Shown here one piece after another: positions 11,873 through 57,541 of a DNA stretch of 64,000 nt. The stretch spans positions 124,001-188,000 of the forward strand of contig NZ_AFNU02000003.1 in the NCBI RefSeq assembly GCF_000215935.2, in the 5' to 3' direction. Within the stretch, counting starts at the first letter, position 1. The number at the start of each line of letters is the position of its first letter. The DNA is from Haloplasma contractile SSD-17B (lineage in GTDB: Bacteria; Bacillota_I; Bacilli_A; Haloplasmatales; Haloplasmataceae). The position numbers and the translations under genes are program-made. The notes under the pieces are model-generated. The model saw only the letters and a list, made by a program, of their open reading frames with translations. It searched no databases and was not told the DNA's origin.

Positions 11873-12058
11873 ATGGCTGACAAGACAATTGTTTGTAAAG
11901 ATTGTAGTGAAGGATTCACATTTACTGAAGGTGAACAAGAATTTTACAAGGAAAAAGGATTTGAAAATGATCCTGTAAGATGTACTGATTGTAGACAAAA
12001 AAGAAAAACACAACGAAACAACCGTAGTAATAACCGCAGTTATAATAACCGTTATTAG
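11873..12058 (+). CDS. Small zinc-ribbon protein
   Basis: A 61-residue protein with two CxxC knuckles, CKDC near the N-terminus and CTDC near residue 38, plus the segment FTEGEQEFYKEKGF that is typical of the small zinc-binding family often annotated as zinc-ribbon or cytochrome-c-like protein. The C-terminus is a basic Arg/Asn tail that could bind nucleic acid. The second of two adjacent ATGs is chosen because it is seven bases from a perfect GGAGG; the first is only four bases away. A strong terminator follows directly. Confidence 0.82.
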   Translation: MADKTIVCKDCSEGFTFTEGEQEFYKEKGFENDPVRCTDCRQKRKTQRNNRSNNRSYNNRY

Positions 12059-12257: not shown

Positions 12258-12668
12258 TTAATTTTTATCTAACTCATATCTAATAAAAATCACATCACTT
12301 ATTGACAATTGTGTAATTTGTGCAACACGCTCTATTGAGACGTTCTTTTTAAGGTTATGAATGGCACTTATACGCATCGCTTTTAATTGCTTTTGTTTTC
12401 TTTTATGATAAAAATAGATCGCATTACATAAAATTAATCCAATAAAACCTGTAATATAGATTATTCTTCCGAGTCTAAATCTTGATAAATTAATAGAAAG
12501 ACCACCATTCATTTTTGTGACTGAATTTTGATAAGTAGGGTAAGGATTTTCGAAATATTGATCTACTTCGTAAAACCCTTTAACGATTAATCCTGTAAAT
12601 AGGATTAAAAAAAGTAGGTATAAAAGTAGATAAAGTTTTTCTTGTTTTTTTGAACTTAAAACACTCAT
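12258..12668 (-). CDS. Small two-helix membrane protein, unknown function
   Basis: 136 residues from the chosen ATG at 12668, which has a GGGAGG site six bases upstream; longer in-frame starts lack one. Two hydrophobic helices are present (LYLLLYLLFLILFTGLIV and IIYITGFIGLILCNAIYF), followed by a basic stretch (HKRKQKQLK) and a soluble tail (about residues 105-136) with a helix-turn-helix-like pattern, SIERVAQITQLSISDVIFI. I do not recognise a family. A membrane-tethered sensor or regulator is possible but unproven. Confidence 0.6.
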   Translation of the reverse strand: MSVLSSKKQEKLYLLLYLLFLILFTGLIVKGFYEVDQYFENPYPTYQNSVTKMNGGLSINLSRFRLGRIIYITGFIGLILCNAIYFYHKRKQKQLKAMRISAIHNLKKNVSIERVAQITQLSISDVIFIRYELDKN

Positions 12669-12782
12669 ACTAAAGCCTCCCATCATAAAGTAACAAAACC
12701 ATATTATCATAATAACTTCTAATTGTAAATTTTTACCTTTGCTTCTTACAATCAACAATCTTCTTTAACAGAGCCAAAATAA

Positions 12783-12812
12783 AAAATGCCCTATCATTTA
12801 ATAGGACATGTC
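12783..12812 (-). terminator. Terminator of the 217-residue membrane protein gene
   Basis: Minus strand ATGTCCTAT-TAAATG-ATAGGGCAT followed by six T residues, immediately after the stop codon at 12817. Confidence 0.8.
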
Positions 12813-12816
12813 ACCA

Positions 12817-13470
12817 TTAGATATTAATATTGTCGTACATATATTTAATAAGTACTATAATCTTATTGTTGATGATCATAGGGAAAATAGCAGCTACACT
12901 ACTTAAAACAAAATGATAAGTAATACCTTTGGGCTCTAGTGACGAAACATCACAAACAATAAAACTAATGAAATAGATTAGCATAATAGAAAGTATAAAT
13001 GAAAGTACATCTTTCTTAGTAAATGCAACGTTATACTTAAGATTATGCTGAGTTAGATCAAAGTGATCATTCACACGCCAAGATATTAATAATAAGATAA
13101 TCAGATGAACAAATAAAACAGATATTATAAAATAGACGTATTTGCTCGTATCAAATATAAATAAATCAAATAAATGATAGTAAAGTAAGCATTGAATAAT
13201 CCATAGACTGATAATTTTATAGATTACTTTCTCCCGATTATCATCGAGTTCTACTTTAAATAAATACACTAAAGCGAATAGAGCCGAGATAATCTTAAAT
13301 GTAATAACAAATAAAGTTAACAATTCACTAAAATTTGATTCAAAGCTTAATTCAAATAACTCATCAAAAGCATAATATTTCAGTGGTTCAACCACAAATG
13401 TTAAAGCAATAAATACGAGTAGAAATAAGGACGTTTTTTTGGACGATATTGAAAGATTTAATTTTAACAT
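12817..13470 (-). CDS. Polytopic membrane protein, unknown function
   Basis: 217 residues with five or six predicted membrane helices (for example LFLLVFIALTFVVEPL, ELLTLFVITFKIISALFALVYLF, VYFIISVLFVHLIILLLI and VLSFILSIMLIYFISFIV). The ATG at 13470 follows a good AAGGAGGC site. The DNA is very AT-rich, more so than the housekeeping neighbours, and no family is recognised. It is convergent in context with small membrane genes and next to the structured RNA and the HTH regulator, so this stretch looks like accessory DNA. Confidence 0.6.
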   Translation of the reverse strand: MLKLNLSISSKKTSLFLLVFIALTFVVEPLKYYAFDELFELSFESNFSELLTLFVITFKIISALFALVYLFKVELDDNREKVIYKIISLWIIQCLLYYHLFDLFIFDTSKYVYFIISVLFVHLIILLLISWRVNDHFDLTQHNLKYNVAFTKKDVLSFILSIMLIYFISFIVCDVSSLEPKGITYHFVLSSVAAIFPMIINNKIIVLIKYMYDNINI

Positions 13471-13667
13471 AATAATGCCTCCTTTTATTATTTACCTACT
13501 CTATCATATGAAATAAAAGGAAGCATCATATCTAATTGATTCATATAAAGGTATTTTTGCTATTTTTTTACAGATATTATTCGTATATTTAAGCATAAAA
13601 AAAGCATCTTCCCCAAGATACTTTTTCAAACAAACTAATAATTATTCCTTAAACTTTTACTTAATAA

Positions 13668-13696
13668 TTCAAATCACCAAAAAAATTTGGTATAAT
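13668..13696 (+). promoter_or_regulatory. SigA-type promoter of the 13.7-kb structured RNA
   Basis: TTCAAA (13668-13673), a 17-bp spacer, and a perfect TATAAT (13691-13696). Transcription would start near 13703, exactly where the first stable hairpin begins. Confidence 0.7.
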
Positions 13697-13702
13697 TAGT
13701 AT

Positions 13703-13885
13703 TCAGGGTGAGCATGACGTTAATCTTGCTCAAGCCCTGAAAGAAGAAATAAAGAAACAGAATAAAAAAACAAGTTTTAGAAGGGTAATGCCCGAACACA
13801 GGTGAAGACTAGTTTAAATCCATGGGAAGATCCCGCCGTTGTCTAGTAACTGACAAAGTGTAATTACTAGATACGTTAGAAAAAA
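13703..13885 (+). ncRNA. Candidate structured non-coding RNA, class not assigned
   Basis: The transcript would begin with a strong composite hairpin (cagggtgagca at 13704-13714 pairing with tgctcaagccctg at 13727-13739). After an A-rich linker comes a G/C-rich folded region: gggtaatgccc, gggaagatccc, and a long-range pair actag (about 13808-13812) with ctagt. This segment is far richer in GC than its surroundings and contains no ORF on the plus strand. Parts such as gatcccgccgttgt recall the core of cobalamin riboswitches, but the order of elements is not convincing. The raiA-motif RNA of Bacillota is another possibility of similar size, which I cannot confirm. It lies upstream of an HTH-TPR regulator. 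Confidence 0.6.
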
Positions 13886-13925
13886 CAGTTTTAATGAGAA
13901 CATCATAAGTAGGTTTTTCATACAT
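13809..13925 (-). CDS. Possible 38-residue small protein antisense to the structured RNA
   Basis: On the minus strand an ATG at 13925 is preceded five bases away by a full GGAGGTGA ribosome binding site and opens a 38-codon frame (MYEKPTYDVLIKTV... ending ...RDLPMDLN). It overlaps the 3' half of the structured RNA. The strength of the ribosome binding site is the only support. A chance match, or pairing between this cacctcc and the downstream gggaggt, is equally plausible. Confidence 0.3.
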   Translation of the reverse strand: MYEKPTYDVLIKTVFSNVSSNYTLSVTRQRRDLPMDLN

Positions 13926-14014
13926 GTCACCTCCACTGGTTCGTACTATCTATATTATCAGAAAAACATTACCCTGTAAATTGACTAATTAGTCCGATTT
14001 GGGAGGTATTTACA

Positions 14015-14962
14015 ATGAAAACGTTAACAGACCAAGAAAAAAACAAGATGTTTGGTAACTATCTATATGAGATGAGAAAGCAAAGGGGACTTACTCAGGA
14101 GAAGTTGGCTAACAATATCTGCGATCCTAGGCAGATTTATCGATACGAAAAAGGTAGGAGTCTACCCTCTGCTCAAAAAATGTTTCTAATGTCTGAGCGA
14201 TTAGGTGTTGACTTAATGAACTTTTTTGAACAATTTGAAATCAACAACTACCGCATGCTTTCAGAACTTAAACAAAAAATAGAAGTTTGCTTTTATAAGA
14301 ATGATTTCAAGACCCCACTAAACCTTATTAAAGAGCTTGACGATAAATTAGAGTATCTCACTGATAAAAATATTCAATATTATCTATGGGTAAAATCAAG
14401 TTGTTTATATAGAACAGGGGATAATTATGATGAAGTTATTAAAAATATTAATAAGGCTCTAAACAAGACCTATATAAAAGAAGTTAAGACCCTTACAACT
14501 CAAGAGGTTAATTTATTGAACCTAAAGGCAATTATCCTAATGGAAAACAATCAAGATGATCACGCAGTTGAAATATGGAATTTAATTTTGGATAAAACTG
14601 ACCTAACGTTTAGTGATGAATTAGAAAAATTACTACCAAAGATTTTTTATAACTTATCTTATATTTATAGAAAGAATAAACAATTTGATCTTGCAATCTC
14701 TTTTAGCCAAAAGGGAATTGATTATTGTATTAATCAAGGTATTTTACTTGGACTAGCTTATCTCTATTATAACAATGGTCTTTCGAAGTTAGCATCTAAC
14801 CGTAAAGATGAAGGAATTGAGTCCATAATCAGGACATTTCAATTATTAAAGATTGAAAATAATACAAATGTAATTAAACTCTTTAGGACTGGTTTAAAGG
14901 AAGACTTTGATTTAAATATTGACGATTATCTCTCATGCAAAAAAGGCTATACCACTTCCTAA
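14015..14962 (+). CDS. HTH (Xre-type) transcriptional regulator with C-terminal TPR-like helices
   Basis: 315 residues. Residues about 12-70 are a Xre-type helix-turn-helix (YEMRKQRGLTQEKLANNI, IYRYEKGRSLPSAQ). The remaining 240 residues are helical repeats of the TPR kind seen in Rgg/PlcR-type quorum regulators (for example YNLSYIYRKNKQFDLAISF). Peptide binding is typical of that architecture, but no signal-peptide gene is visible next to it. The ATG at 14015 has a GGGAGGT site. An upstream acctcc at 13929-13934 is complementary to that site and could mask it in a longer transcript. Confidence 0.78.
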   Translation: MKTLTDQEKNKMFGNYLYEMRKQRGLTQEKLANNICDPRQIYRYEKGRSLPSAQKMFLMSERLGVDLMNFFEQFEINNYRMLSELKQKIEVCFYKNDFKTPLNLIKELDDKLEYLTDKNIQYYLWVKSSCLYRTGDNYDEVIKNINKALNKTYIKEVKTLTTQEVNLLNLKAIILMENNQDDHAVEIWNLILDKTDLTFSDELEKLLPKIFYNLSYIYRKNKQFDLAISFSQKGIDYCINQGILLGLAYLYYNNGLSKLASNRKDEGIESIIRTFQLLKIENNTNVIKLFRTGLKEDFDLNIDDYLSCKKGYTTS

Positions 14963-18749: not shown

Positions 18750-18850
18750 CCTTTAATTGTTGTACTAAGACTCGCCTTTAAAGGTACGCAGACTTGCGAT
18801 TTTAAGACCTGTTAAGTGCGGTTGTAGCACTAGGTGCTAACAACATTACA
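18750..18850 (-). promoter_or_regulatory. Candidate L21 leader RNA
   Basis: Upstream of rplU the minus strand carries a roughly 100-nt segment with several short complementary blocks (for example GTTGTTAGCACC / AGTGCTACAACC and AAATCGCAAGTCTGCG). Many Bacillota have an L21-binding leader at this place. The fold was judged by eye only. Confidence 0.45.
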
Positions 18851-54463: not shown

Positions 54464-54576
54464 CCTCTCGTATCTCTCAAGGTTAACCTTGCAGAAGTTA
54501 GCACCTTGTAGACATAATAATTGTTGTTAGTTACCTGCATCGTAGGGCCAGTCCCTCTGTCGCTCTTGATAAGAGT
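54464..54576 (-). promoter_or_regulatory. SAM-I (S-box) riboswitch, copy 1
   Basis: Minus strand shows the canonical order: P1 strand CTCTTATCAAGAG, then GAGGGACTGGCCCTACGATGC, AGGTAACT-type P3/P4 region, GGTGCTAACTTCTGCA and the closing AGATACGAG. Binding of SAM should favour the terminator and stop the transporter transcript. Confidence 0.95.
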
Positions 54577-57424: not shown

Positions 57425-57541
57425 CCTCTCTTATCTCTCAAGGTAAATATACCTTGCAGGAGTTAGCACCTTTTCAACATAAGTAGTTGAAGGTTGCCGG
57501 GCATCGTAGGGCCAGTCCCTCTGCCGCTCTTGATAAGAGTA
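57425..57541 (-). promoter_or_regulatory. SAM-I (S-box) riboswitch, copy 2, upstream of metNIQ
   Basis: P1 pairs CTCTTATC (minus strand 5' arm, 57532-57539) with GATAAGAG (57427-57434). Core blocks GAGGGACTGGCCCTACGATGC, CCGGCAACC and AAGGTGCTAACTCCTGCA are all present in order. Turns off the uptake operon when SAM is plentiful. Confidence 0.97.

Follow-up and report, generated by a model that had tools for sequence, protein, structure and literature searches.

A probable RNPP-type receptor and peptide gene pair with a predicted antisense receptor leader in Haloplasma contractile

In Bacillus, papR lies downstream of plcR on the same strand, and PapR is a short C-terminal peptide with aromatic residues. 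In the Enterococcus plasmid pCF10, according to excerpts of the source papers, the transcripts of prgX and prgQ overlap by 223 nt (PMC7855173), Anti-Q is made from a convergent promoter (PMC6540685) and the short Q RNA of about 400 nt ends at IRS1 (PMC5515443). Streptococcal rgg2 and rgg3 are divergent from their pheromone genes (excerpt of PMC4162386) and the ComR-box is described as a pseudo-palindrome with GACA/TGTC (excerpt of PMC5131891). Here we analyse a locus within 64,000 nt of Haloplasma contractile DNA (the whole stretch is called the window), where the best explanation as a whole, with a probability of roughly 0.7, is an RNPP-type peptide quorum-sensing pair with an antisense receptor leader. 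The features are collected in Table 1.

Table 1. Observed and predicted features of the locus (positions in the window; both promoters and the dyad are sequence signals).
Feature	Position	Strand	Description
Plus-strand promoter	13668-13696	+	TTCAAA-17-TATAAT, sigma-70-like, extended -10 (TGG); start near 13703
Hairpin, 5' end of plus-strand transcript	13702-13741	+	folding; begins at the predicted start site
RNPP-family peptide receptor / transcription regulator (HTH + TPR), 315 aa	14015-14962	+	Pfam, profile, fold
Propeptide gene, 35 aa, MKNLLMMFSLKLFFLTYLVITLCQLLDNGGIFPWI	13814-13921	-	ATG at 13921, stop at 13814
Shine-Dalgarno sequence GGAGGTGA	13927-13934	-	perfect; 5 nt before the ATG
Propeptide gene promoter	13952-13980	-	TTTACA-17-TAATAT with TG; start near 13945
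Probable intrinsic terminator (peptide transcript)	13597-13628	-	stem, GGGG loop, T run
Receptor mRNA 5' leader, antisense and Anti-Q-like (predicted)	13703-14014	+	deduced from promoter positions
Palindrome GACTAATTAGTC, 12 bp, likely receptor operator	13983-13994		centre ~44 nt ahead of the start of the peptide transcript

An earlier note on this DNA had proposed a structured RNA of unclear class at 13668-13885, driven by a good promoter and lying upstream of an HTH-TPR regulator. The promoter is indeed good: it has the top plus-strand score within 13471-14014 (11.5), equalled in 1 of 500 dinucleotide-preserving shuffles. The stem-loop said to follow it directly is also found, with positions 13700-13745 folding far better than shuffles (z = -5.4 on the plus strand, -5.1 on the minus strand), and the entire region 13700-13885 has z-scores of -3.6 (plus) and -4.0 (minus). 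The ‘compact GC-rich fold’ (13770-13885) is no better than shuffles (z = -1.1 plus, -1.2 minus); within it a hairpin at 13836-13880 alone stands out (z = -2.9 plus, -3.9 minus), and this lies inside an ORF of the opposite strand. The best-folding of 344 tiles, 13579-13764, contains both the 5' hairpin and the nearby terminator. Other 186-nt stretches of the window that fold far better than shuffles are found near 11905, 44641, 47803 and 49477 (z = -4.0 to -4.7). Because both strands of 13700-13885 fold alike, the minus strand was read for genes. The plus strand has no ORF of at least 20 aa between 13517 and 13923, but the description of the region as having no ORF does not hold for the minus strand, which carries a 35-aa ORF preceded by a perfect Shine-Dalgarno sequence.

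The encoded peptide starts with Met-Lys, continues with a hydrophobic stretch and ends in a short polar and aromatic tail; the signal-like N-terminus was called by a simple rule rather than by SignalP. We infer that its C-terminal end, for example GGIFPWI, is the pheromone. The promoter of the gene scores 10.5, a value that 5 of 500 gap shuffles reach, and the predicted peptide transcript would run for ~350 nt from the start near 13945 to the hairpin and T run at 13597-13628. This terminator is absent from the list of the consensus scan, which demands three G-C pairs. An ORF of 38 aa in another frame (13809-13925) uses the same Shine-Dalgarno sequence and was set aside for its poorer spacing and the lack of a signal-like stretch; judged by sequence alone, it may still be an alternative to the 35-aa ORF. 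The RNA of the 35-aa ORF folds better than synonymous versions (19 of 1000 are as good on the minus strand, 4 of 1000 on the plus strand), which at this one locus hints at a role at the RNA level. Downstream of the peptide gene lie genes for two small membrane proteins without a family assignment (12258-13470, minus strand). As no promoter scoring above 7.5 precedes the nearer gene (12817-13470), read-through of the peptide transcript into it is possible, and the two proteins are possible targets of such predicted read-through.

Known RNA families do not account for the region. The covariance-model search that the earlier note had suggested gave, at the Rfam gathering score over the 64-kb window, no credible family at this locus, that is no known RNA class, and no cobalamin riboswitch. 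The matches in the window are ordinary: an L21 leader (18758-18833, minus strand) and two SAM riboswitches (57428-57539 and 54467-54575, both minus strand). The earlier doubt about raiA and cobalamin RNAs, whose remarked likeness is one of approximate size only, was right: in a permissive scan of 13550-14020 with all 4227 Rfam families, neither raiA (RF03072) nor cobalamin matches up to E = 10. Four weak matches in that scan (E = 3.5-5.5) were judged to be chance. A whole-genome search also gave no raiA match, and its control genomes likewise gave none, so that the exclusion of raiA rests better on the permissive scan. At the DNA level no credible relative besides the locus itself was found among 100 genomes from its family and class; the other matches, in the own genome and in these 100, are short and mostly within an A-rich linker. 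The sequence of the region, 5' hairpin included, occurs once in the genome. No second close sequence was found from which covariation could be read or a covariance model built.

These results bear on the view that the plus-strand promoter drives a free-standing structured non-coding RNA (a small RNA or a new riboswitch class) unrelated to the opposite strand. Such an RNA would be in keeping with a good promoter running straight into a strong hairpin, with the plus-strand folding of 13700-13885 as a whole and with the scarcity of synonymous ORF versions folding as well on that strand. It is improbable given the lack of any credible Rfam match and of a second genomic copy, the loss of significant folding past the first hairpin and the gene on the opposite strand. 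The terminator consensus scan, moreover, found nothing to close a discrete plus-strand RNA of ~180 nt. What stands of the structured RNA is a plausible plus-strand transcript starting near 13703; a free-standing RNA of a new class is unsupported.

The downstream HTH-TPR regulator is, more precisely, an RNPP-family peptide receptor. Two Pfam families match over cut-off, HTH_3 (9.1e-12) and RNPP_C (PF18768, 2.6e-10), and phmmer identifies PlcR [PDB-id: 2qfc, 6.1e-7]. A profile built from 43 receptor homologues matches PlcR (2.3e-27), Rgg2 (1.5e-19), ComR (1.5e-15) and PrgX (1.5e-10). The top Foldseek matches of the AlphaFold2 model (pLDDT 89) are PlcR, ComR, PrgX and Rgg2 chains, at modest TM-scores of about 0.4-0.65, perhaps as a result of a different arrangement of the domains. 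As in an RNPP (RRNPPA) pair, an N-terminal HTH and a TPR peptide-binding domain, seen by Pfam, profile and fold, go together with an adjacent propeptide gene that has a signal-like N-terminus and a ribosome-binding site. Close orthologues of the receptor were found in none of the sets searched: the best full-length matches in 149 relatives are 24-28% identical, 392 genomes of the phylum gave four matches besides the receptor itself at E <= 1e-14, none of them close, and neither the genome-contig nor the viral-contig collections hold a close one. Phage and plasmid records gave one partial phage match and 15 matching plasmid records, with no closer orthologue among them, and the flanks of 80 obgE loci contain no receptor. 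The ObgE sequences nearest to that of the window include Turicibacter (67%), followed by Bacillales and others, which points to a host that probably belongs to the Bacilli. Peptide orthologues were likewise absent from the sets searched. As the receptor orthologues found reach no more than ~28% identity across most of the protein, evidence of conservation for the peptide itself is lacking.

The arrangement of receptor and peptide gene recurs nevertheless. Receptor homologues were gathered from the own genome and the 149 relatives and their surroundings fetched; the 59 matches were reduced to 45 distinct receptors with a length of 230 aa or more, the window locus among them. A divergent signal-like ORF accompanies 21 of the 45 by a loose rule and 19 by a strict rule, the ORF rule having been written after a first look at the ORFs of some of the loci. 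Under the strict rule 26 receptors have no such ORF. That rule found no ORF in the same-strand control (0 of 45) and none upstream of other genes (0 of 92), and 40 shuffled sets gave a mean of 0.125 with a maximum of 1. The gap between the divergent starts is typically 82-93 nt, and 93 nt at the window locus. A second receptor/divergent-peptide pair is present in the own genome (paralogue L035, C3:7329-8186), with the peptide MKKRVAIITILISFFIGVFYLNGINVRAAFDDVTYEEVDID; there an ApbE-family gene comes after the peptide gene. Three of the 15 matching plasmid records were inspected. The Niallia homologue has a divergent signal-like ORF, whereas the only ORF beside the Carnobacterium homologue is divergent and lacks a clear signal; in Cytobacillus (L111) a signal-like ORF lies downstream on the same strand and its propeptide contains GYPTQH twice.

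In about ten related loci (L041, L042, L050, L054, L055, L072, L074, L081, L085 and L092) a conserved protein of ~92 aa follows the divergent peptide gene on the same strand. It has no Pfam match over cut-off and no NCBIfam match in the two examples that were searched, and may be a target of these systems; it is absent beside the peptide gene of the window.

The palindrome GACTAATTAGTC, which adjoins the -35 box just upstream of the peptide gene promoter, is likely the operator of the receptor (5 of 200 shuffles give one as good). Gap palindromes at homologous loci, such as GGTCATATATGACC and CGACATATATGTCG, have their centres 51-68 nt ahead of the peptide start, and a palindrome score of at least 7 is reached in 8 of 21 loci, where simulation gives 0.41 on average and 3 at most. 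The predicted placement of GACTAATTAGTC is that of an activator, which would mean activation rather than repression; for promoters controlled by ComR and RopB, the excerpted text of PMC4162386 places inverted repeats within the -35 region or immediately ahead of it. No genome-wide receptor regulon with this palindrome was found, as the genome contains a single exact copy of GACTAATTAGTC and a reversed control pattern gives more matches. That the receptor gene is the sole functional element, the small ORF, palindrome and hairpin being chance products of AT-rich intergenic DNA, would accord with the lack of an orthologue of peptide and RNA in the sets searched. We consider it very unlikely, since ORF, gap length and palindrome recur together at homologous loci and promoters beat shuffles on both strands.

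How the receptor gene is transcribed is the less certain part. In the gap between the divergent genes (13922-14014) no plus-strand promoter scores above 7.5, which makes the convergent promoter at 13668-13696 the best candidate, and likely the receptor's own. The predicted transcripts would then overlap by ~243 nt (about 13703-13945), spanning the whole peptide gene, and the RNA reported earlier, if transcribed, is likely the receptor mRNA's antisense leader. The region 13702-14030 folds with z = -2.3, and 3 of 100 shuffles are as good. The convergent layout is not constant at homologous loci: 11 of 21 have no plus-strand promoter scoring at least 10, and in the others the best one is located between the genes (4, including the paralogue of the own genome) or within or past the peptide gene (6). 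The 5' hairpin was ruled out as a shared feature of such loci, as it was not seen in the nine others that were folded. The four loci with a promoter between the genes and the unshared hairpin favour a divergent RNPP pair without antisense control. In it a weak gap promoter would serve the receptor, as seems to be so in the paralogue, while the convergent promoter and its hairpin would be incidental. This account is unlikely, though the strongest competitor; against it stands the best gap score of 7.5 vs 11.5 for the convergent promoter.

The mechanism that we favour, the RNPP-type pair with an antisense leader, would extend what was computed (receptor family, peptide ORF and its recurrence, promoters and dyad) to secretion, processing, binding, activation and antisense transcription with its effect. 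The 35-aa propeptide, encoded on the minus strand of the reported ‘RNA’, would be secreted, and its cleaved C-terminal end re-imported, probably via an Opp-type transporter; three SBP_bac_5 (OppA-type) proteins of the genome score over cut-off. Inside the cell the peptide would bind the PlcR/ComR/PrgX-like receptor encoded head to head with it, and a receptor dimer on the palindrome beside the -35 box would turn the peptide gene on in a positive feedback. The receptor would be transcribed from the convergent promoter with a leader of roughly 310 nt that carries a stable 5' hairpin and covers the entire peptide gene in antisense. RNA pairing and polymerase collision may then set the two transcripts against each other, as in prgX/prgQ of pCF10, and sharpen the on/off switch.

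The locus would add a further example to a known type of system, perhaps one with an Anti-Q-like RNA. It supplies a testable set of receptor, peptide and operator, and about 20 receptor/divergent-peptide pairs came to light within the same class, several with matching palindromes. It also illustrates that an unannotated pheromone gene can resemble a structured RNA if one strand alone is read. A more specific proposal is tentative, and we put it at somewhat under an even chance: a chromosomal peptide quorum-sensing switch of the Anti-Q type, bistable and not borne on a conjugative plasmid, in which a convergent promoter like that of pCF10 joins a PlcR/ComR-like receptor and an activator-type operator, and the receptor's structured mRNA leader doubles as antisense RNA to its pheromone gene. 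A real antisense leader would mean that convergent switches of the pCF10 type also occur outside such plasmids.

Among the described systems, PlcR of Bacillus matches the receptor best, in sequence as in fold. The candidate pheromone resembles PapR in its aromatic C-terminal end, and its gene is divergent from the receptor gene instead of downstream on the same strand. With Rgg/SHP of streptococci, as excerpted, the locus shares divergent receptor and pheromone genes; the receptor is only 14-17% identical to ComR and Rgg chains in structure alignments. Candidate operators at two related loci (L082 and L087) resemble the ComR-box in its excerpted form, whereas the operator letters in the window are not the same. 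PrgX/PrgQ differs in several respects: the locus is chromosomal, with ObgE- and L21-like neighbours and no sign of conjugation genes in the part that was read; the receptor is nearer to PlcR and ComR than to PrgX; and the palindrome is positioned as an activator site, with an antisense RNA that is predicted. In predicted layout the two are alike. Both have an RNPP receptor and a peptide gene on opposite strands, with convergent promoters whose transcripts overlap by ~243 nt here (predicted) vs 223 nt in the pCF10 excerpt. The distance from peptide start to terminator is ~350 nt, compared with about 400 nt excerpted for the short Q RNA, and in both the receptor transcript begins, here by prediction, with a structured RNA.
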